Under the pieces are notes generated by a model. That model made no database searches and had not been told where the DNA came from. It was given only the letters and a program-made list of their open reading frames with translations. 64,000 nucleotides of DNA from Chondrosia reniformis (Eukaryota > Porifera > Demospongiae > Chondrillida > Chondrillidae), in the NCBI GenBank assembly GCA_947172415.1, contig OX359195.1:3033501-3097500 (forward strand). Reading direction: 5' to 3'. Positions within the stretch are counted from its first letter, which is position 1. Each line of letters starts with the position of its first letter. Below are positions 1,256-59,205 of the stretch, one piece after another. Both the position numbers and the translations under genes were made by a program.

Positions 1256-2240
1256 GTGCTACATGTGCAATGCACTATACTATACAATGTCAAGGCAATA
1301 ATTTCACTAAAGAAGAGAGTGGAAGTGATTCATTATAAGAAAGCCAATCCTCAGGAAGGAACTCACCAGATTGCATCTCATTATAATTGCGCCCGGACTC
1401 AAATACAAGGCAATTTACAGCATCAGCATGAAATCTTAAAGGAATATGAAAGCAATGCTAAAGAAGACAAGAAACGCCACAGAACAACTGAGTATGTGGA
1501 CATCTAGGTAGAGAAAGAAATGTACCTATATCAGGAATCATGTTCCAAGAAGAAGCACGTATTCTAGCCGGCAAACTGAGCAATCCAGATTTTTTTAAGG
1601 TATCAAATGGGAGGCTAGACTGTTTTAAAAGGCAACACAATCTCAGGTAGCTAGTGCTGTGTGGGGAGTCTGTTATTGTATTTGAAGTGACAGTCCAAGT
1701 TTGGTATGATAGAATAAAAGACTTTTTGATTGGATACAGTGCAAAAGATGCTTGGAATGCAGATGAACCTAGCTCCTTCTATAGGGTTTTACCAGAAAAC
1801 ATACTGGCAGCACAATGCAAGGGTGGAAAAATATCCATAAACAGATTATCAATACTCTTTTTTGCCAATGCTGATGGTGGGAAGGAACCTCCTATTGTCA
1901 TTGGCAGGTCTGAATTGCCAAGATATTTCAAAAGTTTGTAAGATAAGGCTAGCCCCCATGGAATACCATATAATGCCAATAAAACGGCATGGATGACATT
2001 TGAAATTATGCATAAGGTGATGGGAAAACTAAACAGAAGATATATAATGGAGAATAGGAAGACCATTCTTCTACTTGACAATGCTCCTTGTCATCTTAAG
2101 CAATATTAACATAGCCTACTTTTTTCAAATATTAAAGTGATTTATCTGCCAAAGAATATGACATTTAACATATTTACAATATTGTTGCACAAATTGCAGT
2201 ACATGCAGGTCTTCATGACATTTGAGCTGCATACTTGAAA
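1256..2240 (+). mobile_element. Tigger/pogo-type transposase relic
   Basis: A broken plus-strand transposase of the pogo/Tigger branch of Tc1/mariner. The first part (about 1290-1440) reads as a CENP-B-type helix-turn-helix with the typical run NPQEGTHQIA followed by CARTQIQ. Then come the DDE-domain landmarks: YSAKDAWNADE (first Asp, near 1755), CKGGK, ANADGGKEPPIVIG, a KTAWMTFE-like segment and LLLDNAPCH (second Asp, near 2075). Several stops and frame changes split the frame and the last acidic residue is not found. Ends were not located. It lies downstream of the last recognised exon of the minus-strand PPR-like gene. Confidence 0.8.
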
Positions 2241-2993
2241 AGTATGTGCAAATGCCTCTTATACATTGTTGTGTATAGGCCTACACTCCTACATACTCTG
2301 CCCACTCTTGCACTGTCATAGAACAGCATACTTATGTTTTACCATAATGTATTCCTTCCTGTCGATCTCTTTCACATACGTAGGCCTTCATATCTTTTAG
2401 TGGACCCCAATAAATCACTACCAAATAATCCATCTTCATACCAAGTGTACTTGTGCAAATTAGCACTTGCAGTGTACCGTCACCTCCTTAGAACTCAGGA
2501 CAGTGACAATACTACAAGAAGAAAGAAGGATATGTTTGGTGCACCAATTGGATTTGTGCATTCCTATCGAAGGTATTGACGAAGTGTTCATAGATACTTG
2601 TACAGTCACTAATTGTTTGGCAGAATATCAGTAACATTGGAAATAATTTACTTAGGATTTTCAACTCTTGGAGGCTGATAGAATGCATGTTATTCTACAA
2701 ATGGAGAATGCAATACCTTCCTTTTCAGTTACTTGAGAAACAGTGAATACCCAAAGTAGAAAATAGAAGTTTAACATGTTTCTTTTGTTGCCATTGCAGT
2801 AACTGCTATTACAGGTACATTAATTTCTCTTCTGACGCTTCATACATCACCTAGCCCCTAAATGCTTTGCAGAATTATCCCCCCTTGTTCAGATTTGATA
2901 CTTTGGTTAGCATAGTAAAGTGCAATGCATGCATAAATAAATGCATTATAGTTAACTACGGTAATTAATTTAGTAGCTTACAGTGAACCTCAC
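2241..2993. other. Unassigned sequence
   Basis: An 81-codon plus-strand frame at 2334-2579 has no motif I recognise and no clear splice context. It may be the tail of the Tigger relic or chance. Nothing else stands out. Confidence 0.4.
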
Positions 2994-3140
2994 CAACCAC
3001 AAAAGCGACATGCTGTCCAAGAGCATATTCCTTTGCAAGGTGTTGTTCTGATCCAATCTTATTCAAAACAAATATTGAAGCCAACCTTGCATTATTTTTG
3101 CATTTCTTAGCATTATGCCATTTGATCAGGCTCTTAATTC
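2994..3140 (-). CDS. Candidate downstream exon of the PPR-like gene
   Basis: On the minus strand this segment has an open frame including NARLASIFVLNKIGSEQH and AKEYALGQHVAFVV, ending at a good donor (GTGAGG at 2988-2993). The composition reads like helical-repeat protein. The upstream acceptor that would match phase 1 from the exon at 3410-3482 was not found, so either a small exon is missing between them or the link is wrong. Confidence 0.4.
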
Positions 3141-3409
3141 ACCATGTCTTGACGAAGAAAGTGTATGGTATATTACCAGACCTTTTCCTCCCCTTCCCAA
3201 ATAAAAAGGGCAAGTTACAAGACCAGTCAAACATCAATTTTCCACTTTTTGCGAAGTGACTACATTTCCACACATTTTGTTGACAGATATTACTAATCAG
3301 TCATGCTTCCTTAGAACAAAAGGATATATAGGCTATTCACCAGATGCTATTTGGCTGACTGTGTGTACAAGGTGGAAGGTACTATATGAGTAAACAAATA
3401 TGCACTCAC

Positions 3410-6400
3410 CTCTCCAAAGCACAAACCTTGAGTCAGCATATCTAGGATTCAGAACAACAGCATCAATTAGTTCAGTATAGCCCTACATTTAGCCAAAACA
3501 AAACAATAGATAAACTTGCGAATTACGAAAGTAATAATCCTTTTAGGTACCTTTTCTTCAGGGAGAGCTTTAAGATACTTGCAGTGATCAAGGAAGAGTT
3601 CAATAGCATTTTTCACTTTGGCTCTACGACAGTATAGACTGAAGAGCTTGCTCACAAGTGACGGCGGTAGAGTACAACCACTTTTGAGTAGGTCATGAAT
3701 AACTACTCTGTGGATTAGGTCAAGGCTATAGAAATAATATATAGATGGGACAGCCACAGGTAACTCAAGTACATTAATTAATTGACCTAGTGAATGTATT
3801 TTTGAGTAAGGCTCCATCCTACGTAGATATGTAACTCAAGCTTGGGTTTCTTTACAAATTGTCAAATAGGAGAACAAAACACATTGTAAGAGGACTACCT
3901 AATTCAATATGTTTGTTTGCAATGAAAATCTGGCTTCATTCAAGGGAAGAAAAATCTTTTGAGAGGGTCAAATGCACCCACTACCTCCTGTAAAAGTAAC
4001 CCTGTATACTCTTAATTATGAATAATGTATTTGTGAGTTGTGAGTTTCAAACCACAAGTGCTCTTCCTAATCTATAACAGCAGAATAGGTCATAATCTCA
4101 AACTTGGGCTACTAAACCTTTGCTGTGTCTCCTCCCTTTTCTCTGTTATGTTATCTAACTATACAGTAGCTTCTCCTTCATTCCTAAATTTTTGCAACCC
4201 AAATTGACAATAACCAAGTCTACTTAAACAAGACACTCGTATCATGTAAAGAGAACACAGTTTCCCAATCAAACTCAGATAAGAGAGTATCTGAATCTGA
4301 TTACAGAAGCATAAACTTCCTCATCTAATGTACATACGTATGCACATGATATACGTACTAATTACTCTGCAGTTAGTATAAGAGGGATATATGAATAACA
4401 ACAGAGAGATTGCAGATAACATCAACAATACAGTTGCTCTGGCAACTGTAGCTCAGTGACAGAGCACTGGTGGTCATAAACAGCTATCCTGGGTTCATTC
4501 CCCTGAAATTGATTCTTTTATGTTTTCCCTCTTCAGGATGGTTGAAAATGATTACTTGTGGTTTGATTGTAACTTGGATATTCAAATGCAAAATATTAAA
4601 AAAATTCTATAAAATTGGGGAAGATGTAGGGATGGCACAAAACGTACAGAAACAATAAATGATATTACAGAAGAAAGCATTAGCTGTGCATGAATCATAC
4701 AAACAAAGGTGTTGCAACATATTTCTACATCTGGCAGCACTTTGCATGGTTTGCTTCCCACTAGAAAATGCATGATGCCTACTCTTATTCTTCCCATGTA
4801 CATAGGTATATACCACATACAGGAAGCCTTTGTCTATGTCCTACTTTCCTATACTTATTTGCAACCTTTACACTTATTTCACTGCATGTCATTGTGTGGA
4901 GTATACATATTAGGGGGACTACAGCTGTAGGGATATGGTGCAACACCCTAGGTTGTATGATTCTTTTTGTATCATCCCTACATCTTCCCCATTTGTGTAG
5001 AAATTTACAATATTTCTAGTTTCTGCACTTTTTATGGAGTATGAGCTAGGAATTAGATTTGTATTTTAAAACCATTTTGGTTTCGCAATCTTGGACTGAT
5101 TATGACGTCTTTAAAATGGTGAATTTATTAAAGCCTTGACTCTTGGTTCATGAAAACAGTCATACTCAATAATAACATTATGGCTCTCGCTTCTACAAAA
5201 GAATGCAGCTCAGAAAATTTAAACTATTTTCACTAAAGAAGTAGTCTGAAAGCTTATTTCCATTTTTGGTTCCAGTGGGCGAAGAAGATGAAGAAGAAGA
5301 TGAAGAAGAAGATGACGAAGAAGATGAATAAGTAGAAAACGAAAATGGGATATTTCAAAGTTCGTTCATTTACCAGCAGAAGGCCAGTTTATAGCATGGC
5401 TGGTCTATTTTTAACTATACATAGCCTATTTCGGTGGCTTTCAGCCTATTTCGGATTTTCAATCCTATACAAATGTATAGGGAAAATGAAAAAACTGGTA
5501 CCATCCCTACATAGAGAGTACTAGTACTACCGTACTCTCTCGTAACTTATATAAACTTACAACTTTCCATGAGGTACACTCTGCTTCCATCTGTTAACAC
5601 CTAATTCAGATAAGGCTAACAGAGAGCTCACCACATCTGAAGCAATACTAAGAAGAAATGGTTATACAAGTAAATGAAATAAAATTATATGAATCTTAAT
5701 TTATTATATACAAATGCAGACAGATAATATATAAATTTAAGGAATGTATCATTGGTACAAGATATATTGCAAAGGATCAAAGAATCCTTTTTAGAACTTC
5801 ATGACATCAGTATCTGAAATTGTGCCCAATACAAGCATTTCTCCAAAAATAAACTACCCATAATATGCCCGCACCCGTTCTTTCCCACTTTAAATCCCGT
5901 AGCAAACCCGTATGTAACCCATACATAATCCGTACGTAATAAAGAGCTGTTCTATACCCGTATATACTAATTCCATACACCTGTTATTATAGGGAATACC
6001 ACAACATCATGAACATTTACACCGTTTGGTTAGGAATTTTAATGGTTGTACAGCAAATTGGGTAGTGCTACTGGGTCAGTTAATCTTACTGCCTTTTTGA
6101 AGACGATTTACGAACGAGATGGTTTACTCACTTTATATTAAACAGAGAATTCTTTTTTACCATCGGAAGGGAAAGAGCAGCAGGCAAATAAAGGATGCCT
6201 TGGAAGAGGAAGGCCTACAAACTTCGACTTCAGGAGTTTTTGAAGCATTTTAGAAAAACAAGTTGCATTGAGCGTAAACCTGGCTCTGGTCGACCCAGTA
6301 AAATCACTCCTAGTGTAAAAAACCCTAATTAATAGGCAAATGGATGAAAATAATGAGACAACAGGAGTTGAGTTGCAAAAATTGTTGCACAAGGAAAGTC

Positions 6401-9400: not shown

Positions 9401-12400
9401 CAGGTGATTTCTTAATTATGCTATTTGTGGTTTTAGCAATTGGTTCACTTATTTGAGTATAAAATATTTTGTACTATGAAATACAGTATAGAGGTTATGC
9501 GATGATGTCATATTCGCCGATTCTTATTAGTTATCGTAGTCAAGGCACCATTTTAAGTGGCAAAAGGATGACATTCGTACCCACGTAGAGTGGCAAATAA
9601 GCCGACAGCGATGTCAAGAAAGTATTCGCCCTACTTTTATGAACTCAAAGACGCAGAGAAGCATCGGAAAGGCTCTCAATTACTCCCATATTCTCGGAGT
9701 CTTTTGTTCCTATGTGTACGACAGGAATGGTTCTGAAACCATTGACTGACCTTTACGACCCAAAGTATTTAGAGTTATCCTATCCTCAACTTCTTGATCA
9801 ATGTGAAACTGTGTTTGAAAATTACTTCATTACAACTGAGATGGCAACAAATACAGAGAAGCATACACGAGGTCAGTCTCATTCGAAGCTGTGGTTTGAG
9901 CAGCGTGCTGGTCGAGTCACAGCATCCAAATTGAAGGCAGCAGTATGTACCAACATGTCACAACCATCTATGTCGTTAATCAAGTCTGTTTGTTACCCTG
10001 AAAGTAATTGTTTTAAAAGTGAAGCAACATCCTGGGGATGTGAGCACGAAAATACTGCCATAAAAGCATATGCCTCGCAGGAAGGAAGCAACCACAAAAA
10101 AATTGTGATTTCTGACAGCAGATTGGTGATACATTGCTCACATCCATTTATGGGTACATCACCAGATAGTTTTGTTAAATGTGAATGCTGTGGAAAAGGG
10201 GTGATAGAAGTCAGGTGATAGAAGTCAGGTGCCCATATTCATGCAAACAGAAGTCAATTAATAAGAAGGCAGCAGAAGATTCTCAATTTTTTCTGTAAGA
10301 AGATGACAGAGGGAATTTAGATTTAGATATTTATCATGCATACTTCTTTCAAGTGCAAGCGCAGCTGAAGTTTTGTTCTGCTTCATATGCAGATTTTATT
10401 GTCTGGACTGAAAATGAGTTGTTTACTCAGCGAATTTACCCAGATGAACTTTCATTAGTAATGTTCTACAGCTAGTCAATACTATTATCAAGATTGGCAT
10501 TCTTCCAGAAATAATCGGCAAGTACTATTCAAAAGAGCCTATAGTAAACAACCCTACGTCGCCAGACCATGATCAGGAGGAGAGCATAGGAACACACCAG
10601 TGTGTCTTACTGCCAAAACCAGAGGATGGCCAGCAAATAATTGCCTGTGATGATAACACATGTTGCATACAGTGGCTTCATTTTTCATGCTTATGTACCA
10701 AAAAAGTACCGAAAGGTAAATGGTTTTGTCCAGATTGTTGAAATAATAAAAAATGAACGAGAAAGTATATTATAACAGTATATACTACAGTGTTTTTTAT
10801 TATTCATTTTTGTTTTAGTGTAATAATTATTACCTTTTTCAATGAAATGAATCAGATATATACAGTGCATGAATCATAACTTATTAATACCATTCAATCA
10901 GATGATACAACTGAATTACAACAATTACAAAGTGCATAACAAACTGTAACAACTTTATCAATTAAACTATTTTCCTGAGTCTCAGAACACATAATAGAGT
11001 TAATAGGTAGTGTTGATGTAAAATTGTGTACTTTTGTCTAACAACTCCAATAATTCGTTCAACATGTATGCACACTCCAGACAATTAACAAGACAGATCA
11101 ACTTGAGCCTTGCTGAGCTGCTTTTTACCCTTAGTGAAAGGAGGTAGTTTAACTTTGGCATAATACATATCTGCACTGTCATGAATGTTAAATCCTCTGT
11201 TGGCTAAAATTAGATCACCTGGTATGAGATGTTTGAGAATTCCACAATTTTCTGTTATATACACGTCCTATGCACGTCCACCTCAACCTTTTGATATGAA
11301 TGTAATAACACCTTGTGGGGCAATTCCAATCAAAAATGTAGCAGTATTGTGGTGTTTGTAATTCAACCAAGTTTGTGCACGTGCTTTTACATTGGTAGGT
11401 CTCTCCATAAACACTTCAAAACAGTCAATGATTGTAACACATTGTCTGATTTTTTTTCTAAAATCCATAGGCATAGTCTTCATAAGTTTATCTCTCTCAG
11501 GCCACTTGATCAAAGGTTTTAGTCATATGTACATAACATCAATCGACTTGTTAAAACATCTTGTGATGGTTGACTGATTTACACCAAATCTGAAAGCTAT
11601 ATCCTGGTCACCAAATCTGAAAGCTATATCCTGGTCACCAACATTCAAACGCACCTTCATTAACACCACTATCAGTTGCTGGAATTGAGAAAGCGCACTC
11701 CTATTGCCAATTTCTACACACGGTGCAAAAAAGCAAATAAAGCCATTAATGTGGCAACATTCGGTAGACCTGTATAATATTTTACTTTGGCATCATTGTC
11801 TGTGAAAGACTCCTGTGACAAAGAAAATTGTGTTATAGTTAGTTTACTCTCATGATCACTCTTGGCTTTTGACTCTTTAAGTTGCTTACACTCTTCTTGA
11901 AATTGTTTACATTGTTCCTTTAATGTGCTATTCTCTTTAACAAGTCTTTGGTTGTCTTGTTTCAGGGGCTCACACTCTCCTAGCAATTTGCTATTTTCAT
12001 TGGAATTTCTGAAGATTACATTCTAGGTCTTCGATATCACTCATGGACAAAGATGTAGAAGTAAATGAAGCAGAATGTGGTTCACAAAACTCAGAACCAT
12101 TTCCAACTTCAGAAACTTCCAACAGTGACTGAGCTGCAGACATTCTATCATTGTTGTCAACCCCTTTCTTTTTAGTGATCGCCATTCGCTCATATCTCTC
12201 CATATCCTTCGTAAGTTTTCTCTTTTTTGGACTTTTGATATGATTAAAAACTGATGGCACATAATCAAGAGAAACAGGATCGTTGCTCTTAAATCCATTG
12301 ATAAAATGGGCACCACAAATCCACAAATGTTCCAATCTTTACGATCTACAGCAGCAATCCACATAGTCCTTCTCTCTGAGTCGGTAGGAAGCGGTAGAAA

Positions 12401-15400
12401 GGGATCCCAGAGGACTTGGAGTACCTGTTAGTACAGTACAGCAACTCTTTCCCATAATTATTTTTCTGTGACTTTGAACGCTACAAACTGACCCTTAGCT
12501 TCACGCTAACAAACCTCACTTAACACTTCGTTTATAGATAGTCTATGTTGCGACATCTTGCCACTCAAAATGGCCGCCCCTATATTACGTTATTATAAAT
12601 TGCATCATCACATAACCTCTATAGACCACTTGCATAAATACGTCACAAAATGACTGAAAAATTGCATAATACCGGATATGTTGGCAAAAAACTGCAACTG
12701 CTATACCCATCATACGATTTTAACTTATTTTTGAAGCAAAGATGCAGCGCACACAGTCCATGTTAAGTCTAAAAATGTCAACTACAGAAGATGAGTTACT
12801 GGATGTACTAAGGAAGCTCACAGTTGCCAGCCTCAAGACTCACTGCAAGGAAGTGTTCGTGAAAGTGTCAGGAAACAAGGCCGAGTTAATCAGATGGCTT
12901 TTAACTCACTGTGAACACAAGTGCACTGGCAGTGACAGTTTGGCAAGGCCATGTGGTAGTAGATCTGGCGCTGCTATGGCTTTGGGTGTTGCTGATTTGC
13001 CAGTTCTTGCAAGGACCTCTCTTCATTAAAGAACTTCACATTCATGCAGCTATATCACTACCTCATAAACAGCTGAGATAAAACCTTTGACAAGGACAGT
13101 CTGAAAGCTTTTAAATCCTTGAAAGCCTACAAATATTTTAGTGATAACCTGGTTCAAAATGTATGGCTTAACAAAGTAGAAGGGAAAGATATGGTAATTG
13201 TAAGGGGATATTGCCACTCATCACTCAAGGCCAAAACCACCTACACTGTCTATGTAATTCTGCAGTCTACTGGGGATGTAAGGGGGAAGCATGTAGCCAT
13301 GTAGCTGCTCTGCTGTTTTATATTGAAGACATTAAGAGGAAAGAAGGGCCACTTCCTTTAGACAAAACAGTTACTGACCAACTACAGCAATGGCATGTGC
13401 CTCCTCAGAGAACAGTAACGCCGCAACCATTACTTACCATGCACTTTTGGACTGGCCTTGAAATGGAAGAAGTGAAGGACAGCAATGAAACAACTGGACA
13501 ATTAGCACCTGAGGTTTGATGGCCTCATGCTCTTGGCAAAGAAACTAGTTGTCAACACATCAGTCCCACAATTAGCCTATGATTTACAGCTGATTAACAC
13601 TGATAGTGAATACTTTGCCATTCCTATGTTTGCAAACAGCTGATTGACCAGCAATTGTCCACCTTTATTAAGAAAGCAACCATTAAGCAAAGTGATAATG
13701 AACTGTGGAAGGAGTTACAAATTGGTTGAATTACTAGCTCTGTATTTGGTGAGGTATATGGTAGGAGGGATGAGACTAGTCCTGTATCCATATGCAAGCG
13801 TTTGATGGGGTACACTTATGTCAGTGTCAATCTGCCACAACTAGTCGATGTACTCGATCGTCCAAAGGAATTGCTCTATATCCAATATTGGCAATGGCAT
13901 CTTTTTACACATACAGTATATCAGGAATTGAATGCGTACATCTAACGAATGCGAGATCTATAATTTTTTGATAAGCATTGATTTAATCAATTAAATTATA
14001 AATACTTAGTATTAGTACTACTCCATACAGCTTAAGCTTCATCTTACTTTCTTTCAACCACAATCTTTTACCACTTATACCTGATATTTGGACAAATCAC
14101 AATCTATTACACTAGCAATCAATTCCCAATATACCATACATAAGTATTGCATTAAACATACATAGGTAGGAAATTAAAAATCCTTATAGTAAGGCCTTTG
14201 CATAATAACACATACCAAAAAGATACATAAATTAATGCATATTTGGTTTTATACAACACTTCGATTAAAACTGATTGTGTTGGATTACACATACTGGATA
14301 ATTAAACAAACCTCGCATTTAGTGTGACATTGTTCTTCATAGTCTCCCATATCGACAGGACATGGTGGAAACCTCTGCAATATGAAGCACCAAGCTAAAC
14401 ACACAACCCCAATAACAGTTTACAATATCTGTCAAAGAAACTTACTTTGCATTTTTCATCATAATAAGGTACGTTTCAGAGTTAACTACATCCCAAGCAG
14501 CTAACATTCTTTTAATCTAAGTGGAATATCCATATATTTACGTACACAAATATACTTATGAATGTACTTACATATACATACGTACTAACATACTGTATGT
14601 ATTACAGTTACAAGAAGACTAGGACTCATAGCCATGTACATAGGAGAATTAGTGATTTATATTAATCATGAAAAATCTAAGATACCATTTTCCTACATGC
14701 TATATGCCTATTCTGTAAAAAGAGCCTATAGGGGAACTAAACCTAAAGAGAGCTTTAGATGAAGATACAGTAGTCTTTTCTTCCTTCTTTTCCCTTCTTT
14801 CATCTTCTTCTCCACTGGGTCAGACAGCCGTTTCTGGGAATTCCACCCTTCATCAGTGATCCTGGGAGTCTTTGTCTTTTTCTTTATCTTGATCTTCTGT
14901 GAATACTTGGCACAGTTACTGTACAATATCATGGTTGCTGTACTGCATGAATGTGTGCAACACTTAACATACCAAGATTTCTGAAGATTTTGTATGTCCT
15001 TCTTGCAATAGCTTGTCCAAAGTTACATTGTATAGCTTTCTAAAATACATATGATCTACACTCTTAAAGAACAGGTTAGCCATGCAACAGTTTGCATCTT
15101 ACAGAGGTGGTTTCATGCCTTGGTCTTGTATCAATTTAACTATATGCATAAGACTCTTGGAATCCTGAACAAAAGACTTGCTGGCAGCAGCTATGACTTT
15201 AGTACTAGGGATATACTTTTGTTGTATCATCACAGAAAGCACTGCAGGAACAGTCCATAATACATGCAAAGGAGGCTTTACCACAATCATTCTATCTATA
15301 TACTCTATATTCTAAATCCACTACAAACTAAAATGTTTAGCTTAGAGCAATAGAGAGTGTAAACTTTCCATTCACACACTCTCTCACTAATAAAAGGTGT

Positions 15401-17069
15401 GAATATTTAGTCAAAAATTGGGAACACAACTTTCAATTATCATCATTTTGCCCCTCGCCCTTGCTAAATACTCTGAAAGAAACACTGATAAGCATGAGAT
15501 GCATGGTCTTGGACTTCACTTACAGGTTTTAGCTGACTCAGCTAGCTCCTCATGAGTACTCATATATGGAAGGACAGCCTCACATAATTGAGGATGAGCA
15601 CCTTCAGTCTCTTTTTGCAATAAACACTGAGCAAATCTATGAATGTATAAAACCAAAAATATAAAAATATCATTAGAATAAAGGAAAACTGCTAAAAAAA
15701 GCTCGTTTTGAGCTATAAAAGATATTACTTATAGACCACTTTAAATTTACTGTAACACATCTGCAAAGTGTGTAACATAACTAGGCCATAGCAATGATTA
15801 ATTGTCAGTGAATTTCCAAAGGCCAATAAAAGAGATCAGAAGGAAGACATTTCAGGAGATACAATCTGTCATCAGATTCACCGGGTGCAAAGGCACTGCA
15901 CGAAGATAAACAAAGAGATTTAGACCATATAATGTAGTTTCAATTAAAATTTTCCACCTATATCCCATGCATTAATCTCCAGACCACCACGGTTGTATCA
16001 ACTCAGCAAAGAATAAAAAAAAAACTTAAATCTCACTGACTATACCACTTCTCTCACCCCTTGTGTACCCTCCTCCTCTCATTCCCTGTGTACCCTCCTC
16101 CTCTCATCCCCTGCGTACCTACCTCCTCTCATTCCCTGCGTACCTTCCTCCTCTCATCCCTTGTGTACCCTCCTCCTCTCATTCCCTGTGTACCTTCCTC
16201 CTCTCAACCCCTGTGTACCTTCCTCCTCTCAACCCTTGTGTACCCTCCTCCTCTCATCCCCTGCGTACCTACCTCCTCTCATTCCCTGCGTACCTTCCTC
16301 CTCTCATCCCTTGTGTACCCTCCTCCTCTCATTCCCTGTGTACCTTCCTCCTCTCAACCCCTGTGTACCTTCCTCCTCTCAACCCTTGTGTACCCTCCTC
16401 CTCTCATCCCCTGCGTACCTTCCTCCTCTCATCCCCTGTGTACCTTCCTTCTCTCAACCCCTGTGTACCTTCCTTCTCTCACCCCTTGTGTACCCTCCTC
16501 CTCTCATTCCCTGTGTACCTTCCTCCTCTCAACCCTTGTGTACCCTCCTCCTCTCACCCCCTGTGTACCCTTCTCCTCACATTCCTGTATGCATAGCACC
16601 ATTACCCAACTTGACAGTAAAACAATAGGACAATTAAAATGAACAACTACATAGTAATACGTATATCATCCATTAAATCAATTGCAGAGTAGCCTTAAGT
16701 ATAAAAAGCTCATTATTGTCACAGATGACACAAACTTAACCATTACACAAAACACACCTGCCAAGCTCTGATGTACAACCTTTATCTAACCAGCCTGATA
16801 CACCCTTTAATGTCACTGTAACAACATTTGATACAGGCCAAGTTAGACCAAGGGTGAACTGCAAAACATCGTAAACTGCTTCAGCTTTTACCCGAGGTAA
16901 TGACTACAGGAGAGGTGAGACGACTGTATGTAGAAAGAGGCTTTTGAGACAAAAGACAAAAGTAGGGTTTTATGTAATCAAATACCTCAATGCTGCTAAA
17001 TCTATAAAATACTCTGCTTGGAAATGTTCGCTTGACAGCAAATCGGAGAATTTCAATGGCTGGTGACAT
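3410..17069 (-). CDS. Probable mitochondrial PPR-like protein (multi-exon, 3' end unresolved)
   Basis: Exons chained by GT-AG sites and matching phase, in transcript order: 16986-17069, 16758-16903, 15863-15895, 15524-15636, 15103-15241, 14973-15039, 14446-14516, 14312-14374, 3551-3818, 3410-3482. Together they encode about 352 residues with no stop. The start [19 protein letters not shown] is basic, hydroxylated and lacks early acids except one Glu, as in mitochondrial presequences. Exons 5-6 ([18 protein letters not shown] and following) and exon 9 ([20 protein letters not shown]) look like paired amphipathic helices of pentatricopeptide repeats. This is a family-level guess, and a specific orthologue was not identified. 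The intron 3819-14311 holds four transposon-derived blocks. A further coding-like exon lies at about 2994-3140, but its phase does not join directly to exon 10. The gene diverges from the HELZ gene 54 bp away. Confidence 0.65.
4433..4506 (+). ncRNA. tRNA-like sequence (tRNA pseudogene or SINE head)
   Basis: The segment has a D-arm/A-box-like block TAGCTCAGTGACAGAGCA with GCTC/GAGC pairing and, about 30 bases on, a B-box-like block GGGTTCATTCC with GGG/CCC pairing. Acceptor-stem pairing is poor, so it is more likely a tRNA-derived SINE head or pseudogene than a working tRNA. It lies in the large intron of the PPR-like gene on the opposite strand. Confidence 0.45.
5277..5331 (+). other. Acidic terminal-exon-like segment (GEEDEEE...)
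   Basis: After an acceptor-like TTGGTTCCAG at 5268-5277, a short frame encodes a Glu/Asp-only tail starting [17 protein letters not shown] and ending in TAA. Acidic tails of this kind end chromatin proteins such as HMGB or nucleoplasmin. No upstream coding exon was found, so it may be an orphan or retro-copied 3' exon, or simply a GAA/GAT microsatellite. Confidence 0.25.
5385..5545. repeat. Repeat end related to copies at 1-250 and 52000
   Basis: The segment ends in an inverted motif, GAGAGTAC..GTACTCTC (5513-5541). Similar motifs close the repeat copies near 240 and 52245. It also has two direct CTATTTCGG blocks. It is probably another member or fragment of the same non-autonomous family. 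Confidence 0.4.
6105..7021 (+). mobile_element. Tc1-type transposon relic (DD34E)
   Basis: Plus-strand relic of a Tc1 transposase. The N-terminal helix-turn-helix region reads [20 protein letters not shown], then the GRP-like linker [11 protein letters not shown] (near 6280-6310). The first catalytic Asp lies in VVFSDE (near 6560). The 3' part (6668-7021) is open and includes [16 protein letters not shown] and [12 protein letters not shown]. Counting from the Asp of QDN to the Glu of SIEN gives exactly 34 residues, the Tc1 spacing. Stops and frame changes occur in the 5' half, so it cannot act. TIRs were not recognised. It lies in the giant intron of the PPR-like gene. Confidence 0.85.
7580..9280 (+). 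mobile_element. DDE transposase relic, IS630/Tc1-mariner clan
   Basis: Plus-strand relic of a longer DDE protein family that I recall from cnidarian, sponge and fungal genomes, distinct from classical Tc1. Landmarks: an acidic N-terminus (7666-7848), [11 protein letters not shown] with [15 protein letters not shown] (first Asp, near 8405), [31 protein letters not shown] then [13 protein letters not shown] (second Asp, about 8730-8820), and INPIE before VWGMAKR (third acidic residue, near 9070). At least five stops or frame changes break it. No ends were identified. The family name is uncertain; the DDE clan is well supported. Confidence 0.7.
9712..10743 (+). pseudogene. YqaJ-like exonuclease with C-terminal PHD finger
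   Basis: The open part (9712-10218) ends in a YqaJ/lambda-exonuclease-type nuclease core: [19 protein letters not shown], then [21 protein letters not shown] and GVIEVR (the nuclease Asp and Glu-x-Lys-like positions). A short repeat at 10203-10226 precedes a stop, and the frame resumes as CPYSCK. The tail (about 10590-10740) is a PHD finger: an N-terminal [15 protein letters not shown] followed by KWFCPDC, then stops. In the ISL2EU-like family the nuclease accompanies the transposase. The gene is broken by stops and a duplication. Confidence 0.75.
10990..12570 (-). pseudogene. THAP-domain DDE_Tnp_4-type transposase
   Basis: Read from about 12370 leftwards: a THAP zinc finger ([14 protein letters not shown], then [23 protein letters not shown]), a basic linker, a coiled coil rich in Glu/Gln/Lys (11860-11990), then [18 protein letters not shown]. 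The DDE_Tnp_4 core follows: [29 protein letters not shown] (catalytic Asp), [20 protein letters not shown], then a degraded [12 protein letters not shown]-like block and ERVI-like tail. It faces the YqaJ gene inside the same terminal repeats. Frame changes are several, so it is dead. Confidence 0.75.
12742..13880 (+). pseudogene. SAP-SWIM-YqaJ protein fragment, transposon-associated
   Basis: An ATG at 12742 opens a frame with a SAP DNA-binding motif ([21 protein letters not shown], cut here: key residues L, K.HC and GNKAEL). Further on (13110-13400) is a SWIM-type zinc-binding region: [33 protein letters not shown], then [15 protein letters not shown]. From 13680 a YqaJ start, [20 protein letters not shown], is followed by [11 protein letters not shown]. 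The sequence then loses homology. It differs from the YqaJ gene at 9712 and lies just outside that element's right TIR, so it is a second family member. Frame changes are present. Confidence 0.7.
13890..14311. other. AT-rich intronic sequence, no feature seen
   Basis: Low-complexity AT-rich sequence between the SWIM-YqaJ fragment and exon 8 of the PPR-like gene. No repeat or frame of note. Confidence 0.5.
14700..14930 (-). repeat. Dispersed repeat with hammerhead-like core, copy 1
   Basis: This is related to the split copy at 56515-56825 plus 59206-59420. Shared parts are TTCTGTAAAAAG..CCTATAGGG, the polypyrimidine stretch with CTTCTTCT and TCCACTG, and GATCTTYTGTGAAT..TTGGC. On the minus strand it is open for 68 codons (KIKIKKK and a Lys/Arg-rich run). 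It lies between exons 6 and 7 of the PPR-like gene. It could be spliced in phase as an alternative exon 14743-14918 (exon 5 donor in, acceptor at 14500 out). Confidence 0.65.
14815..14867 (-). ncRNA. Hammerhead-ribozyme-like motif, minimal stem III
   Basis: On the minus strand: CTGATGA (14856-14850), a GGG/CCC stem II with loop, GAAA (14834-14831), then C, loop GGCT and GTC (14825-14823). This gives a two-base stem III and a canonical GUC cleavage site. The base just before CTGATGA and the base after GUC begin a short stem I (UCA/UGA, then GG/CC after one mismatch). All core positions of a type I hammerhead appear present, but stem II is flanked by an A-A mismatch. Penelope-like elements and retrozymes carry such minimal ribozymes. 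Confidence 0.5.
16040..16585. repeat. Minisatellite, 25-bp unit, about 21 copies, with 150-bp higher-order period
   Basis: The unit is TGTGTACCCTCCTCCTCTCA plus TYCCC. A block starting CTGCGTACCTACC recurs at 16111 and 16261, a 150-bp (six-unit) duplication. Because 25 is not a multiple of three and the unit has no stop, all three plus-strand frames stay open for 150-190 codons. These are artefacts. The array lies in intron 2 of the PPR-like gene (opposite strand purine-rich). Confidence 0.95.
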
Positions 17070-23100: not shown

Positions 23101-26100
23101 ACAAGTCAAACTTGTTTCTCATTCGAACTTACTCAGATTCTTCCAGTGTCAGCAAATACCTCGCTATTGGAGCATAACTAGTTTTAGGCTCGTTGTTGTC
23201 TTTGGCTTGGGCGGTACGTAAATGATTCATAGCTGCTTTATGTTGTTCACTAGTAGAATGGTCCAACACACTGCTCGTGCGTTGATTCTCAGTTCCAGCA
23301 ATCCATGCTTGTGAGTAGTTCTTCATACTGCATATCTTTCTCTCATATTCTCTACAGACTGAACACCACAAAAGCGCTACTTGTCCTAGATCATTTTTGT
23401 CTTTGTCACAATTTAGCCACGTGATGGTCTTGATCAAAATTTCGTTGCCATTTCTCGAAGGTAGTAACCGAAATTTGGTGCTTACTTCTCTTAGCTTTAC
23501 TTATATCACTTAGCTCGCTTGCGCTACTAGAACTACAACGAGAACAACTAGAATAATTTGGCCGACCACTTGGCCGTTTTCGATCTGCCATTTTGTCAGT
23601 CTATTCGAGCACGAGGTCGGTCACGCGACGCAAACATTCGGTAAATGTCCGAAGACCGTCCGTTATGTTTGCCTCTGCAATGACTCATGAATGTAGTACA
23701 GATATACATACACAGAAGCAACTCATCGATATCTTGGAAGTACTTATGTATAACTTCGCTTTTTTCGCAACTACTCTGGCCCAATTCACTGAAAAATTCC
23801 AATCAACCATATACCTTGGTCCTTCAGGTGTACAAGGATCTGTTTTAGAGTTTGGTAAGGACAGAAGCAGGTGCAGATACCTAAGGGGGTGAGGATCTGT
23901 CTGATGGACTCTCACAGATTTTGGATGTACGGGAGGGTCACAGATATCTTGGGTGGATCCTGCTCTTTTTTGGAGGGAAGGAGAGATGTGGGGTGCCGAT
24001 TGTGGTCCAAAATTGACCATGGGTAGCCATTGTTCTGTAGGGCTCTAGTGATGTACTCCCTTTCTTTATCCTTGTCCATGACGTAAGTGCATATCCTATC
24101 CGCCCGGGCTAGTAAGGTGCGGACCACTGCTGTTTTTTGGGAAAGTGGATGATGTGAGAAAAAATCCAGGTGGCAGTCCGTGTGGGTCTCTTTTTGGAAC
24201 ACTACTGTAGACAAGGAACCATCATCATGTCGGATTATCCTGGTGTCCAGGAATGGAATGGAGCCATTAACCTCCTGCTCAATCGTGAACTGGATGGAGG
24301 ACTCAATGGAGTTGATGTGCTGATGGAACTGTTAGATGTAATCCCATGAGAGGGCTGTTAGCGTGTCATCAGCATATCTCTTCCAAAACAGAGGGCGGTG
24401 CGAGCAAGATGCAAGTGCTCGCTCTTCAACGTCTTCCATAACAAGGTTAGCCGCCGTGACAGACACCGGTGACCCCAAAGATTTGACGTTAGCAACCTCC
24501 CTGGTATGACAAATAAGTGGCATCAAGACAGAATGTAAATAGCTGGTAAAGGGGTTCCGGGATAGCACCTGATCTCTTGAGATTTAGGAGGAGTGAGTTC
24601 ATCCTTCCTTCCTTGGGCCAGTGTGGGATCCTTGGGGAGACTTTAATATGTGTCAGTGTCTCCAAGCAAGTCTCTGATTTTTCTGTCATAGTCCAATAGG
24701 TCTAACACGACCGTAGCATTACCTTTATCTGCTGGAGCAATAACAATGGATTTGTCTTCTTTGAGATTCTTTAAGGCCTTTTGCTCTGATGGATGGAGAT
24801 TGAAGGTGGTGGTCGGGATTATAACAAGTATGTATATATTCTTAAGGGTATACATGTATTTTCAAGCTATCTGAATGATTCCCATTCTAACTCCAATGGA
24901 TAACGCAAGCTTTTAGCCATTTACTGACTTGTTCAGTGGGATATCGCATTGTATAACTATGCTATCACATTGTATAACTAAAATAAGAGGCCAAAGTGTC
25001 TCTTATTATAGTTATACAGTGGTTGTGGATTATATATAATTTCCCTTGGTTGCTCCAGCAACGGAGTGTATAATTATTTATGTACTGGCATCGAAGCCCG
25101 CCTCTACAGTGCGTTTTATGCCGGTGTCTCCCATGAATGCAAGTGACTTCCACATCACAACTGTTAAAATGTGCAGCATGGAAGTATTTACATGGTTGTG
25201 AACAACGATAAAAAATGACGTCTTTACGATAAAAATGGCATCTTGCTGTGGGAATTTGAGACAGGACACTCTTCTCTGCAGTGACGAATTTTCATAAATG
25301 AAACACTTCAGGTCACTTCCCAAGTGATACTCCATAATCTGTGAGAGTTAGACTGCATCTCGTCCAGAAACGACGGAGTATTGCGGTAACAAACAAACAC
25401 ACAAACTCTACTGAATTATATATATAGATAACACTTAATTTATGTTTAAATGCATCTATTTTGCAAATGGTGGCATTTGTAAACTCAAAAAACTAAATTT
25501 TCTATCATTCTTTGTAATTTTAAGGATACTTAAGTGTCAAGAATTATTTGTATTACAAATATTATAAGCCTAACAAAGTGGCCGAGTAATTCAAGCACGA
25601 GGGCGGCAGCCCCACAAGTTGTTATTACACAAATTACTTGTTTAATTATTTTTTATAATTGCACCATACTTGTTTTGCACTTTTTGTAGCTTGGAAATGA
25701 CAATGTTGCCATCACTGAAGCCAATAACAAATCACTGGTAGTAGCACTACGGCCCACGCTAGTAGCTAAGCAAGTTGACTGGTGTCTTCAAGTAACAGTG
25801 GAGGTGAGTTAGTTCTTGTTGTTGACTAGTCTAAAGCATTTGGTATGAACCTTTTAGATCTTCCTTTTATTATTTTTAAATTAGAAAAATTCCCAATGCC
25901 TGAAAGCTGTAGTTTTGTTTGATACACTTGGAGAGGTGTTTTGTATCCAAAAGGTAACATACAGTAAGAAGCAAGGCAGAGATTTGAAGTCCTTGAGTGA
26001 ATCTCCTGGTACAGCTGTTGAGCTTAATCATGTCATCCACCCAAGCTACTGTCTAGATGTATATGTGAGTTGTTATAAGTCATTACCTACACCTGTATGC

Positions 26101-35100: not shown

Positions 35101-38100
35101 CCAATTTTGCTAACGTAGTTGGCTTATATTATTTTCATTTTTTACATTCCTTATGTCCACAATGTGAGATTTATATATAACTATATACGGTAGGGGTCAA
35201 AAAAGTATCCGTTCGGTGTCGTTTACTCTTACTTTCGCTCGTACGAAAACGGTGTGAGGACAATTACGAATAATCATCTGTACTTTCTGCGAGAGGAATG
35301 CAGTACATGAGAACGTTTCGTGTTAATTATAGAGACGATCTGAAACACCCTTGAAGCACTTTGGGACAAATTGAAGACGAAGATGAAACAAAACGGAACA
35401 TAGTTCCAGCTTAGTCTTAACAAATGGAACGGATACTTTTTGACCCCTACCGTATAAGGATTTCAGAAATTACATATTAAAATGTGAGCAGCTTTCAAAT
35501 TTCGAAAAATTTAAACACTACTATTTTGTCTATATATGCCATATATATTTATGCATACCATGTTATATTATCAAAATAATAGATGGAGATAGTGGTCAAG
35601 GCTGTAGGAGACTGAATGACTAAATATATTTATGACGTTTTACAATGACACTGATATAAGGGTCCACTGATCCTTCATAGTCTGAGATGCCTTTAATTTC
35701 ACTTAAAATACATTTCTGCATGTACTTGGTAAACTACAGCACTGGATACAACTTTGCCTTAATTATGGGCCACAACTGTTTTAATTCTGACTGTTTTGTA
35801 AAGAATACAAAACCTATGATTGCTATTCACTAAGTCAATTGACCAGTTAATATGGTGTAAAGTATATGTAATGTTAACTGGTCTTTGTAGGAATTAAATG
35901 TTTAACTGGGTTTCCTCTTGGCTATGGTTCACTTTATTGCAGTATTTGTTTCTTATCATCTGTTCCTTATAGCTGCTAGAAGCAGAAACCATTATACCTC
36001 TGACTCTTGCTACTAAAACAACTAAGGTTGTTTTGGCTGGTGACAAGATGCAGGTAAGAAACTTCTTTTTTAGAGGTTACCACTAGGTCTCACTTTAAAG
36101 GAATAGTATTTATTGCCAGATCTGCAAGTTAACAATTAGTTATACACCTTACCACTGAGTCCCAAAGAGGAAAAAGGGATGTATTCAGTTCAACCACTGT
36201 TGAATGGTAAAGAGAGATTCTGATTCCGATCAAGAGGACTTTGGTTCTGCAAACCCAAGTTCATTGCATATTTATGATAGAGAATAGTAATTACACTAAT
36301 GACTATAAAAGTTTTGCAACAGTAGTTCTTGAAATGACCAAATTTCAATCGTTAGATCTTCATCAGTAGTATGTTATAATAGGAATAAGATGGTGTTAAA
36401 ATTGATGTTGTATGATAGATGGTTCAAAGGTCGATTCCTGAGAAGTACTCAAAATATTAAATTATGAAAAAATTAAATTTATGTTGGTGGTGTTAAAGTG
36501 ATTCCATTCTGGTTCTGGAGGTATTCCAGGGTTCATATTGAAGCTGGATAAGTTGTGTAACCTGTTAGTTTCCTTTTGTTTCACATTTTTCACTCCATAA
36601 TACTTTGGTCTTGTCCCAAGAGATATTGTGGAGGGTTTCCTAACATTCCGTAGACAGCTCTGTGGTGTTCCTTTGGGAATCCTGGATGTTTCACCCATGT
36701 ACGTCTCTCCACATTCACAGTGAATTTGCTGTGTTCTGCTCTTGCAGAACTGGTGTCTCAACCTTTTAGTCAGTATAGACTGTGGGCCGATGGGAGACTT
36801 GAGCACTATCCTAACGTTAAGGGGCAAGATCTGTGAAAGGTTTCACTAATTCCTTTGATACATGTACTGTAGACTGATTTTTTTCTTTCTCATTCCTTCT
36901 TTTCACTTCTCTCTTTTACCATGTCCTTTGTACAAGTACTTTTCATAGCTATTGACTTTAAAGTGCATTTAGTGTCGTTTAGCTCCTTTTTAAGCCCATT
37001 ACTTGGCAGATGTCTTCAGCTCTCAGTAGAATGGTGATTTGACATTTATCCTATACTTGATGTAGCTATCAGAATGCGTTGATTTTCTATACACAGTGGT
37101 AAAAGTTGTTGTAAATTCCTTTATGACTAAGACACCAAAAATGGAAGTTGTTCCAGTTCTCCCACCCCATGGTGAACTGTATACAGAGTTGAGGTGATCA
37201 TTTAGAAAGTGGTAGTAGGCATGGTAATTCTTAAGTTATACCCATTTCCTTGTTTAATTGAACTATACCTTGCTAGTATTCTTACAACTTTTTTTAAGTA
37301 ATATTGGCTCATGTACATAATATTTGTTGTATATACACCGTCTTGTGCTTTTCCAGTATACAACACTTGCTATCATGTTTAGTAATCAAATTAAGTTGTT
37401 AATGATTCCATTTCCAAACATTTCAATGGTCTGCAAGTGTAATAACTAGGCCAGTAGTAGTTTTAGTAGTAAGGCAATATTTCTGTAGTATGAACAGTTA
37501 CCTCTCTAGGACAGTCACTTGCTTGCCAGTGATACTTACTGCAACCCCATTGTAGCATAGATATACGACACTACTCACAGGGATTGGAAACGTGCCTCAT
37601 GACTGATACACCACAAACCTCGTAATCGGAAGTAATTACGTAAATCCCGCAAGCGAACTGACGTTCAGAACAATCTATTCTTTTAGTTTGAACGTTTAAC
37701 GTTAGTGAATTGAATGGAAAACGATGCTGCAGCTTTTTTAGTGAAAGGATTTTTGCTGTCTTTGTTAAGCTGAATTCACTCTACTCCTATTTCGGAGGTA
37801 GGGTAAGCATTATTATACTTGATCAATTATCGTGACAATACAGTTGACAGTTACATTGTTTCATTTGTGAATTTTACAGAAAGGTAGACATCAGCAAGAG
37901 CAAGTGCAAAGATTAATAAGTACTCTAGATGAAGATTAAGCTGCTAGTGTGTTTACACCTTTTCCGGAAGAACTAAGCCCTACAAAGATTTCACAGTCTT
38001 AGGATAACTGATCTTCCAGTTCAGTGAGATAGATTGCGTACTTGTCTTGTTCTACCAAAACCTGATCCAATATGGTACCAAACAGTTTCAAAGAGTTTTG

Positions 38101-56825: not shown

Positions 56826-56875
56826 TATGGGGCGCCGTTTGTAGAAAAAAAGATCTAAAATGTGATATATGATAG

Positions 56876-57020
56876 ATCACGATCTATAATCATACATCAC
56901 GATCTATAACCATACATCACGATCTATAATCATACATCACGATCTATAACCATACATCACGATCTATAACCATACATCACGATCTATAATCATACATCAC
57001 GATCTATAACCATACATCAT
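56876..57020. repeat. Subterminal 20-bp repeat array, left
   Basis: About seven or eight copies of a 20-bp unit, alternating CATACATCACGATCTATAAT and the same with AC at the end. The right TIR has the inverted array (59040-59158). Such arrays usually bind the transposase. Confidence 0.9.
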
Positions 57021-57244
57021 GATATATGAATTGTACTTATAGATCAGGATCTATGGTTATATATCATGATATTTAGCATACATCCTGATCTATGATTTAA
57101 CTTCACCTTTGGAATTGCATGAGATCACTGAATGTCATAAGTCATAACAGTGATACTTGTGCCTAAATTTAGAGACTATATGTATATATAGATTTTGGTC
57201 ATAGGAGAAGTACAGCTATTTAACTAGCACATGTTTAGTGAATA

Positions 57245-57832
57245 ATGGCTGATTCAGAAGAGCTTAGAGAAACTATTAGCAGAGCTGTTAGTGATGCTAT
57301 AGCCAGATCTCTGCCTCCTCAAAGTAGATCTAGAGCAACATCAGGAACACAAGACACTATGAGTGAAGATAATAGTACCAAAAGAAGGAGGCAGAGTGAA
57401 ATACCTTCCAGATTTCTAAAGAAGAAGAAAGAGAATAAGGGCAAAGGAAAGGCTGTCATCAAAGAAAAGCTTAGGGTATGGACAAAGGATATCATATGCC
57501 TACCATCTGATTACTCATCCTTAGATGAAATTCCATTGCCAAGGGGGGCAAAGCGGATGGAGTTGACTAACTTCGGTTTGGTTGGCAAGATTTCCTTGTC
57601 CTCCAATATGTCTGAGGAGGAAATAAGAAGAGAAGTGTTATCTGTCTTTACTAATGCCATGGGAGGAAATGATCAATTTAACTTCAAGTTCCTCCAAAGT
57701 ATTGGCAGTGGCTGCCGAGCATTGTTTGATCCTATGACATCCTCATCTTTTCAGTGGACTGCCAAGGAGATAATGAACATCTTGGGACTGAAACACCATC
57801 ACTTGCTCCTATATCATTGGGGTTACATCTAA
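57245..57832 (+). CDS. Accessory protein of the integrase-core transposon
   Basis: 195 residues from ATG 57245. The N-terminus is acidic and Ser/Arg-rich, with a basic stretch KRRRQ..RFLKKKKENKGKGK (nuclear-signal-like, residues 45-70). The second half has FGLVGKISLSSNMSEEEIRR and VLSVFTNAMGG..FNFKFLQ, resembling the accessory protein carried by related fish and cnidarian elements. Function is unknown. The gene faces the transposase and overlaps its 3' end. Confidence 0.65.
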   Translation: MADSEELRETISRAVSDAIARSLPPQSRSRATSGTQDTMSEDNSTKRRRQSEIPSRFLKKKKENKGKGKAVIKEKLRVWTKDIICLPSDYSSLDEIPLPRGAKRMELTNFGLVGKISLSSNMSEEEIRREVLSVFTNAMGGNDQFNFKFLQSIGSGCRALFDPMTSSSFQWTAKEIMNILGLKHHHLLLYHWGYI

Positions 57833-58892
57833 TGTCAGAATCACTGCCATCATCAGAACTGCCTGAATCTGCATTTTCAATGGTGCTGTCTAGAAAGAGT
57901 TGGAATGGTGTTTGGTTACCTTCAGTAGACACTGCATGATTGTTCCAAGCTAATGTAAAATCCTCAAGGGACTTGTTTATTAGTGGCAAAAATACATATT
58001 GAAGACAGTATATATCCACTTCATTCATGTTGTCTAAACAGTCTTCATCTTCTAATTCACGGAATATATTCCCATATATGCTAAGGACAGATCTATGAAC
58101 ATCTCTCCATAGGCGCTCTATACGTGTGTTATGTGTTGAACTCCCTGTTATGATGCATTTTTCTGAACAGTGCTCTTCCATCATTTTCTGCCAAACTTTT
58201 ACATTTTCTCCACCATGGTCAGTACGTACTTTAAGGGGAAGACCATATTTAGACACACCATCTGAGAATACTGATAAAACACTTTCAGATTTGTTATTTG
58301 AATGGCATCTGAGGAAGGTAATCAAGCGAGAATATCCATCAATTCCACCATGTATTACAAATCTCCATCGAATTAGCTTGTGATTACCATCAATATGCCA
58401 AACATCATTTGCTTTTTCTACAAAGTATTTCCTTCGTTTTATTGCAGTGCTTCTCCTTTCAGCTGTACCAACTGGATCGACCCTGTGAATGCTTGCTCTG
58501 AGTTTTGCCCTTGGTACCCTTATACCCTCAGACAGGAGGTGTGCTTTCATCAGCACTTCTCCATCATTTGGTTTGCTACCTTTAATTGCTCTTATTTTTT
58601 GATCCAGGTCATCATCTGATATGGCTGAGTATTTTTCTATAGCAGTGTTACTGGCATGAAATTTGTTATATATTGTCTTCCTACTTACTCCAATTTTTTC
58701 AGCTACTTTAGTGATTGTGTAGCCCTTTGATAAAAGAAATTTCACGTGCTCAGGGTCTACTTCTTTTGAAGGTCTACCTCGTTGTTCAATTGAGGCAGTG
58801 GACATTGTAACTTCATGATCTAAAGCTTCAGCCATTTTATCTGCTTTAACACTATAGGTCTTGACCATGTGGCCATTAACAAGTAGTACCAT
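57732..58892 (-). CDS. rve integrase-core transposase
   Basis: About 386 residues; first ATG on the minus strand at 58892. The N-terminal part has RGRPSKEVDP and a helix-turn-helix (YTITKVAEKIGVSRKTIYNK). The catalytic core is VWHIDGNHKLIRWRFVIHGG (first Asp), LKVRTDHGGENV (second Asp) and STHNTRIERLWRDVH (Glu, 33 residues after the second Asp). Then comes WNNHAVSTEGNQTPFQLF and an acidic Ser-rich tail. The start lies at the edge of the TIR, so the TIR probably holds the promoter. No break is seen. Confidence 0.85.
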   Translation of the reverse strand: MVLLVNGHMVKTYSVKADKMAEALDHEVTMSTASIEQRGRPSKEVDPEHVKFLLSKGYTITKVAEKIGVSRKTIYNKFHASNTAIEKYSAISDDDLDQKIRAIKGSKPNDGEVLMKAHLLSEGIRVPRAKLRASIHRVDPVGTAERRSTAIKRRKYFVEKANDVWHIDGNHKLIRWRFVIHGGIDGYSRLITFLRCHSNNKSESVLSVFSDGVSKYGLPLKVRTDHGGENVKVWQKMMEEHCSEKCIITGSSTHNTRIERLWRDVHRSVLSIYGNIFRELEDEDCLDNMNEVDIYCLQYVFLPLINKSLEDFTLAWNNHAVSTEGNQTPFQLFLDSTIENADSGSSDDGSDSDIRCNPNDIGASDGVSVPRCSLSPWQSTEKMRMS

Positions 58893-59205
58893 TGCATCTA
58901 AATTTAGGCACAAGTATCACTGTTATGACTTATGACATTTAGTGATCTCATGCAATTCCAAAGGAGAAGTTAAATCATAGATCAGGATGTATGCTATATA
59001 TCATGATATATAACCATAGATCCTGATCTATAAGTACAATTCATATATCATGATGTATGATTATAGATCGTGATGTATGGCTATAGATCGTGATGTATGG
59101 TTATAGATCGTGATGTATGATTATAGATCGTGATGTATGATTATAGATCGTGATCTATCATATATCACATTTTAAATCTTTTTTATCTACAAACGGCGCC
59201 CCATA

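Follow-up and report, generated by a model that had tools for sequence, protein, structure and literature searches.

A hammerhead motif in a Penelope-like element of the sponge Chondrosia reniformis, and genomic copies that begin at its predicted cleavage bond

Hammerhead ribozymes are known from the pseudo-LTRs of Penelope-like elements (PLEs), where they are dispersed in thousands of copies and possibly act as dimers; the original studies of these minimal hammerheads, by Cervera and de la Pena (2014) and Lunse et al. (2017), are taken here as summarized in passages of two later papers (PMC7761336, PMC6155905). In one such passage, from a 2020 review, the activity of PLE hammerheads in vivo is called a mystery (PMC7761336). 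A particularly close system is PAc, a PLE of Anolis. In the passages of the report on it that we draw on, its hammerhead lies near the junction of pseudo-LTR and ORF, as does the one described here, and reverse transcription begins within the RNA at a point on the downstream side of the ribozyme, as we propose for the sponge; cleavage of PAc depended on the protein, and none of the RNA reads had its end at the bond (Frangieh et al., 2024; PMC11167929). Metazoan retrozymes resemble the sponge repeat in being hammerhead-bearing repeats of a few hundred base pairs but, according to the parts of the paper used, have stronger hammerheads, head-to-tail tandem repeats and circular RNA (Cervera and de la Pena, 2020; PMC7229834). 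The sponge hammerhead is of an ordinary, known kind, that of the PLEs. The positions at which its genomic copies begin bear on the question of activity in vivo.

The motif lies in a 64,000-nucleotide stretch of the C. reniformis genome, on contig C7 of the 117.4-Mb assembly; we call this stretch the window and use its positions unless stated otherwise. On the minus strand, 14868-14810 can be read directly from the letters as a minimal type I hammerhead, and we also evaluated the structure by folding. The 5' strand of stem I (CUCC CA GG A UCA, 14857-14868) precedes the catalytic core CUGAUGA (14850-14856). Stem II (14835-14849) is made up of A 14849, GGG 14848-14846, a 7-nt loop UGGAAUU, CCC 14838-14836 and A 14835, and it leads to the second core, GAAA (14831-14834), the final A of which occupies stem III position 15.1. 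Stem III itself, ACGGCUGU (14824-14831), can form two pairs with a GGCU loop or, in a dimer, an 8-bp intermolecular helix. It contains C-GGCT-G (14830-14825), followed by TC (14824-14823), and completes a GUC site whose C17 is 14823, with cleavage predicted between 14823 and 14822. The 3' strand of stem I (UGA C CC AGU GGAG, 14810-14822) closes the structure, giving 3 + 2 + 4 pairs in the window copy around one A.C mismatch and one internal loop, CA/AGU. A preliminary description of this DNA had named minus-strand CTGATGA, GGG/CCC, GAAA, C-GGCT-G and UC, together with a two-base stem III and a GUC site cut after C14823, and direct reading bears out each of these. Its extent of 14815-14867 proved too short once the whole of stem I was included, and the stem I pairing that it had called partial is indeed present and is longer than it had recognized.

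Between the core and stem II, where a core-closing pair is expected, A14849 faces A14835 in a mismatch that we take to be position 10.1-11.1 of the hammerhead numbering. Otherwise the marks of the type I class are in place: both cores, CUGAUGA and GAAA, with UH before the cleavage bond, are found at 14856-14823, and there are three helices, open at stem I, with just two pairs in stem III; the paired 10.1-11.1 that closes stem II is replaced in the window copy by A.A. This is not a peculiarity of the window copy. Among 42 older copies that had not been selected for the ribozyme, the two positions carry A in 95% and A in 90%. An A.A at this place should weaken the ribozyme. The hammerhead resembles the known minimal type I hammerheads of PLEs in its tandem pseudo-LTR location, minimal stem III, expected dimeric action and many dispersed copies, and differs from them in the A.A, as far as passages of the papers allow the comparison; a hammerhead of the axolotl is reported, in a passage of the retrozyme paper, with U.U at the base of helix II (PMC7229834).

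Rfam hammerhead models found nothing at E<=10 between 14300 and 15400 of the window or in 8 other copies of the repeat, and nothing at the gathering threshold in the whole window. The covariance search suggested in the preliminary description thus returned no hammerhead around the motif; that description would have given the motif up if conserved pairing had been missing as well, and of these two findings only the first was made. In folding, the hammerhead emerged from the older variant of the sequence, whose stem I contains six pairs, GGGUCA/UGGCCC (6 + 4 in total), and whose stem III is, in most older copies, the perfect palindrome ACAGCUGU. Dimers of this variant reach their lowest energy, -42.1 kcal/mol, as a double hammerhead joined by an 8-bp stem III, whereas two monomers come to -33.8. 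The best folds of the older monomer (-16.9 kcal/mol, against -11.5 for the hammerhead), the window-copy monomer (-13.3 against -7.4) and the window-copy dimer (-35.4 against -29.3 for the hammerhead dimer) are not hammerheads. Because its best dimer takes another shape and its stem I carries the A.C mismatch, the window variant may, on these computed folds, be a weaker ribozyme.

The window stretch folds no better than its shuffles (z 1.0), and within the old copies the core is hardly more conserved than its surroundings (0.908 versus 0.881, n=42). The pairs are retained at 0.905 in these copies, against 0.16-0.57 for partners slid along the sequence, a figure that says little, since the structure was derived from those very sequences. 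Set against the majority sequence of 40 older copies, the window copy has differences at 4 of the 59 positions of the ribozyme, compared with 35 of 189 outside (P=0.04), part of the outside region being poorly aligned; at the 13 core positions there is no difference (0/13).

As the preliminary description had held, the host of the motif is a dispersed repeat. The ribozyme pattern CTGATGANRGGN{3,12}CCNRGAAACNNNNGTC, which itself demands a purine at 11.1, matches 1572 times in the 117-Mb genome, and the reversed pattern not once. Since the 100 matches listed look like one repeat family, the figure of 1572 would reflect repetition rather than independent origins. More relaxed hammerhead patterns also match by chance in the window, at 52921, 34002 and 1212.

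The repeat copy that holds the motif occupies 14667-14914 on the minus strand, about 245 bp, and belongs to a short class that corresponds to positions 3253-3500 of a longer unit, to which it is 99.2% identical. A 651-base query around the motif gave 44 matches (the best 40 of 1417 candidates scored) whose common part is about 248 bp, 14914-14667; 40 further matches in the same genome, among the candidates scored, span about 240-270 bp at 96-100% identity. A 30-base word from the 5' end of the repeat has 1637 genome matches with at most three mismatches. The longer unit, whose positions we denote U, measures 3501 bp, and the window repeat is its last 245 bp or so: at C1:4318442 and C1:4321943 two repeat copies stand in the same direction, 3501 bp apart, on either side of an open frame of 997 amino acids. 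At this locus (L048) the frame is flanked by identical 655-bp end repeats at 2037-2691 and 5538-6192, and a second locus (L050), where the frame is also open, is 99.95% identical to it over 4158 bp. Both loci thus show the tandem or partly tandem units that give PLEs their pseudo-LTRs. In several older copies (L126, L163, L169 and others) the sequence continues beyond the repeat, upstream into the PLE, and short and long copies therefore appear to arise from one lineage. The motif accordingly sits in a PLE pseudo-LTR repeat, in keeping with the earlier view of a Penelope-type minimal type I hammerhead. The accompanying idea of a small ribozyme-bearing retroposon of its own fares worse: given its 99.2% identity to the 3' end of the unit, the window repeat is probably that 3' end.

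The 997-aa frame shows kinship to the reverse transcriptases of PLEs. A GIY-YIG domain at residues 126-159 scores 21.9 bits, just below the Pfam cut-off of 22.6. RVT_1 has no Pfam match at E<=1 in the element's own frame, and the reverse transcriptase (RT) assignment comes from homologues and from a YIDD motif read by eye. Of 7994 candidates scored, 375 are homologues at E<=0.001, and several of these are full-length, about 45% identical over 97%. In all seven homologues scanned (36-49% identical), GIY-YIG precedes RVT_1, weakly in one of them (P0013, E 0.094). RT and GIY-YIG in a single frame, as expected of a PLE, are thus seen through homologues that carry both, and the order of the domains, with GIY-YIG N-terminal to RT, is the permuted one. 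Because seven scanned relatives share this order, we classify the parent element, by its sequence, as a permuted PLE, which we presume to lie near the Chlamys clade. Chlamys PLEs reportedly carry GIY-YIG before RT, just as this element does, and are said, in the study by Craig et al. of 2021, to be abundant in invertebrate genomes. The genome also contains a PLE-like frame (L049) arranged in the usual way, with RVT_1 ahead of a weak GIY-YIG (E 0.053). The Chlamys group is named in a passage of a further paper, which cites Craig et al. (2021) under a title on permuted domains (PMC12477816). PAc differs from the sponge element, according to passages of the report, in having its GIY-YIG at the C terminus and its start codon inside the ribozyme (PMC11167929); in the sponge element about 285 nt separate the cut from the first in-frame ATG downstream.

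Elsewhere in the window there are further mobile-element remnants and repeats. Minus-strand fragments at 23912-24331 and 36462-36842 resemble, by eye, PLE proteins (RT end and GIY-YIG), and frames at 60651-62851 and 11714-12427 similarly resemble remnants of hAT and THAP-type transposases. An element at 56846-59184 has long inverted ends (262 nt, 97% complementary), consists partly of 20-bp repeats, and encloses a 394-aa frame resembling a DDE integrase-type transposase. An array of 25-bp period, open in three plus-strand frames, lies at 15948-16686, and a repeat in three identical copies spaced 133 bp apart at 336-737.

The short copies share a 5' end, at 14910 (minus strand) in the window copy, which falls at CCAAGG in the PLE unit. 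To place the 5' ends we aligned the window copy with 60 copies selected for an intact ribozyme (60 of the first 64 pattern matches listed, four that were already in the set being left out) and counted only rows that reach the 3' end. Among the resulting 55 rows, 23 begin at U 3253-3261, 20 are scattered over U 1994-3245 and 12 over U 3266-3464. Five of the 23 come from L090-L092, which look like one duplicated insertion; these spaced copies have a 5' flank in common, as expected of segmental duplicates. The same end recurs in copies that were not selected for the ribozyme, 17 of 77 beginning 83 to 79 bases before the predicted bond, one of them ended by the limit of its stretch. In the PLE unit, CCAAGG (U 3257) is preceded by a TATATAA whose first base lies 31 nt away, the usual distance from a TATA box to a start site; the window copy has no upstream TATA box. 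From its sequence context, the CCAAGG end is a probable transcription start of the parent PLE. The fixed 5' end of the short copies had given some ground for the idea of a separate retroposon, and the TATA box of the PLE accounts for that end with no need of a separate element. We also noticed that partial PLE units at L048, L093, L096 and L112 start within a few bases of one another at U 2842-2851, in the 3' part of the frame, possibly a third preferred 5' end of PLE units.

A second 5' end coincides with the predicted cleavage bond. Because the 60 copies above had been chosen by their intact ribozyme, they served for the start-site cluster and were kept out of this analysis. Instead, the genome was queried with 3' portions of the repeat taken from two older copies, beginning 16 bases past the predicted cut. 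Each search scored its best 40 candidates, and the 39 + 38 = 77 copies are every hit minus the two queries and one copy already in the set. In ten of the 77, the first base is exactly the one that follows the predicted bond (L115, L118, L128, L132, L140, L142, L146, L167, L183 and L186); L132 and L167 share a flank and, as a duplicated locus, count once, which leaves 9 independent ends. Across -70 to +40, the remaining 108 positions hold 24 ends, or 0.22 per position, and against this background the excess at the bond has a Poisson P of about 3e-12. Two further copies, mapped at -4 (L150) and +1 (L158) and not counted, may by eye also begin at the bond.

This count depends on how ends are called. 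A first mapping placed 5 of 77 at the bond, and by eye several copies were misplaced in it owing to a repeated GGAGAAG word; the 10 of 77 come from another scoring and a longer yardstick, chosen after that mapping and after the copies had been read by eye. Over eight scorings the number at the bond was 3, 4, 5, 6, 8, 9, 9 and 10 of 76, with P from 1.5e-3, for the weakest (3/76), to 1.4e-13, and in all eight the bond was the commonest 5' end from -70 to +40 (tied once). The excess at the bond stands; its size varies with end calling. Nested word counts across the genome, taken without flanks, fall throughout (2855, 2140, 1571, 1311), with no marked drop at the bond. Because such counts mix point mutations with true ends, we also counted a flank word, ACATR, joined directly to the repeat. 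Genome-wide it adjoins the repeat 16 times at the bond, twice at -1 and never at +1. The word was picked after seeing the flanks of the 77 and detects only insertions that adjoin ACATR; 11 of the 16 cases lie outside the 77, and of the 5 within, two are the duplicated locus on C9. Older copies starting at the predicted bond suggest that the ribozyme cuts in the living organism, and we read this footprint as left by RNAs that were cleaved in vivo and then reverse-transcribed from an internal start.

At the 3' side, short and long copies both finish in ...TTTTT|CATG, and in the window copy the terminal (T)CATG (14667-14671, minus strand) would mark the start of reverse transcription. The ends of 29 short copies carry a signal of target-site duplication: the mean longest shared word is 5.28, compared with 4.31 after shuffling, and none of 300 shuffles reached as high. 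The target duplications of L070, 12 bp long, and of other short copies seem to begin CAT(G/A), and the terminal CATG of the element may be derived from the target or shared with it.

The fixed ends, and the coincidence of one of them with the bond, can be read off the copies, and around them we propose the following sequence of events. Transcription would start at CCAAGG, 31 nt below TATATAA, in the upstream pseudo-LTR, as the 5' ends and the TATA box indicate. The RNA would then fold into the hammerhead, stem I beginning about 42 nt from its 5' end; in the computed fold, two tandem copies can share the 8-bp stem III. Part of the RNA would be cut after GUC to give a product beginning UGRCCC, as the genomic footprint suggests. 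Finally, the element's protein would begin reverse transcription within the RNA, at ...TTTTT|CATG, a site about 155 nt past the cut; the fixed 3' end is observed, and the process is modeled by analogy with the Anolis PLE. Copying would run to whatever 5' end the RNA has, so that the ribozyme cut is optional, and starts at the downstream pseudo-LTR would yield long, 5'-truncated copies. The window copy would be the product of an uncut RNA. Overall, we are confident that the motif represents a minimal type I hammerhead carried in the pseudo-LTR of a permuted, Chlamys-like PLE, that the window holds a short, promoterless copy, and that the mechanism is broadly the one proposed.

It is unlikely that the repeat of about 245 bp is instead an independent non-autonomous retroposon, SINE- or retrozyme-like, with masters of its own and moved in trans by the PLE. 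Such an element would account for the defined 5' and 3' ends of the short copies and for the wide range of ages in the start cluster (about 75-100% identity to the PLE unit), and the 3' end common to repeat and PLE recalls SINE-LINE pairs, which share their 3' ends. It fits less well with a TATA box located beyond the 5' end of the short copies, which therefore lack one, with the match of at least 99% between the PLE pseudo-LTR and the window copy and other young short copies, and with the older copies already mentioned that continue upstream into the PLE. Nor is there a head-to-tail hammerhead array among the copies read. We rejected a metazoan retrozyme on the same ground, the copies read being single rather than hammerhead tandems: unlike retrozymes, whose repeat unit is set by the cleavage site, they have an internal ribozyme and are bounded by the probable start site (U about 3257) and the fixed 3' CATG.

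A different objection is that the motif is an inactive, hammerhead-like relic, and that the GUC|TGRCCC ends arose where reverse transcriptase halted on structured RNA or were inherited from a truncated master. The A.A adjoining the core, the silence of Rfam and the non-hammerhead minimum-energy fold of the window copy all favor this explanation, yet we consider it quite improbable in view of the ends themselves. A polymerase that travels 3' to 5' should halt where it enters stem I, near GGAG and about 13 nt downstream, rather than precisely at the bond; the two neighboring bonds are almost unused beside the same flank word; and the bond-end copies differ in their flanks and downstream bases, so a single master is unlikely. 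That the motif is a chance hammerhead-like string in an unrelated repeat is scarcely credible. Relaxed patterns do match elsewhere in the window, but here both cores, the stems, the GUC site and a palindromic stem III occur together in a PLE pseudo-LTR, a known home of such ribozymes in the passages cited above (PMC7761336), and the copies that begin at the predicted bond contradict a chance match.

We return to the reading that a PLE hammerhead cuts its RNA before reverse transcription. What separates this hammerhead from the described PLE hammerheads, as far as passages of those papers show, is that its genomic copies mark the cleavage bond and that its dispersal can be explained by products running from start site to internal priming. 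In the open literature searched, portions of papers included, we found no account of insertion ends at a hammerhead bond, and a prior report is possible. We think it likely that cleavage by PLE hammerheads in vivo has left a fossil record in the genome, in which insertions of cut RNA start at the bond and those of uncut RNA at the transcription start. If this is true, minimal PLE hammerheads would be active in the germ line despite the A.A mismatch, and the hammerhead would trim the 5' leader ahead of reverse transcription. Dispersed animal hammerheads would then be PLE products that run from the start site to the point of internal priming, rather than separate elements. Insertions whose 5' ends fall at the predicted bond can be counted from a genome assembly alone, so the idea can be tested in every genome with such PLEs.
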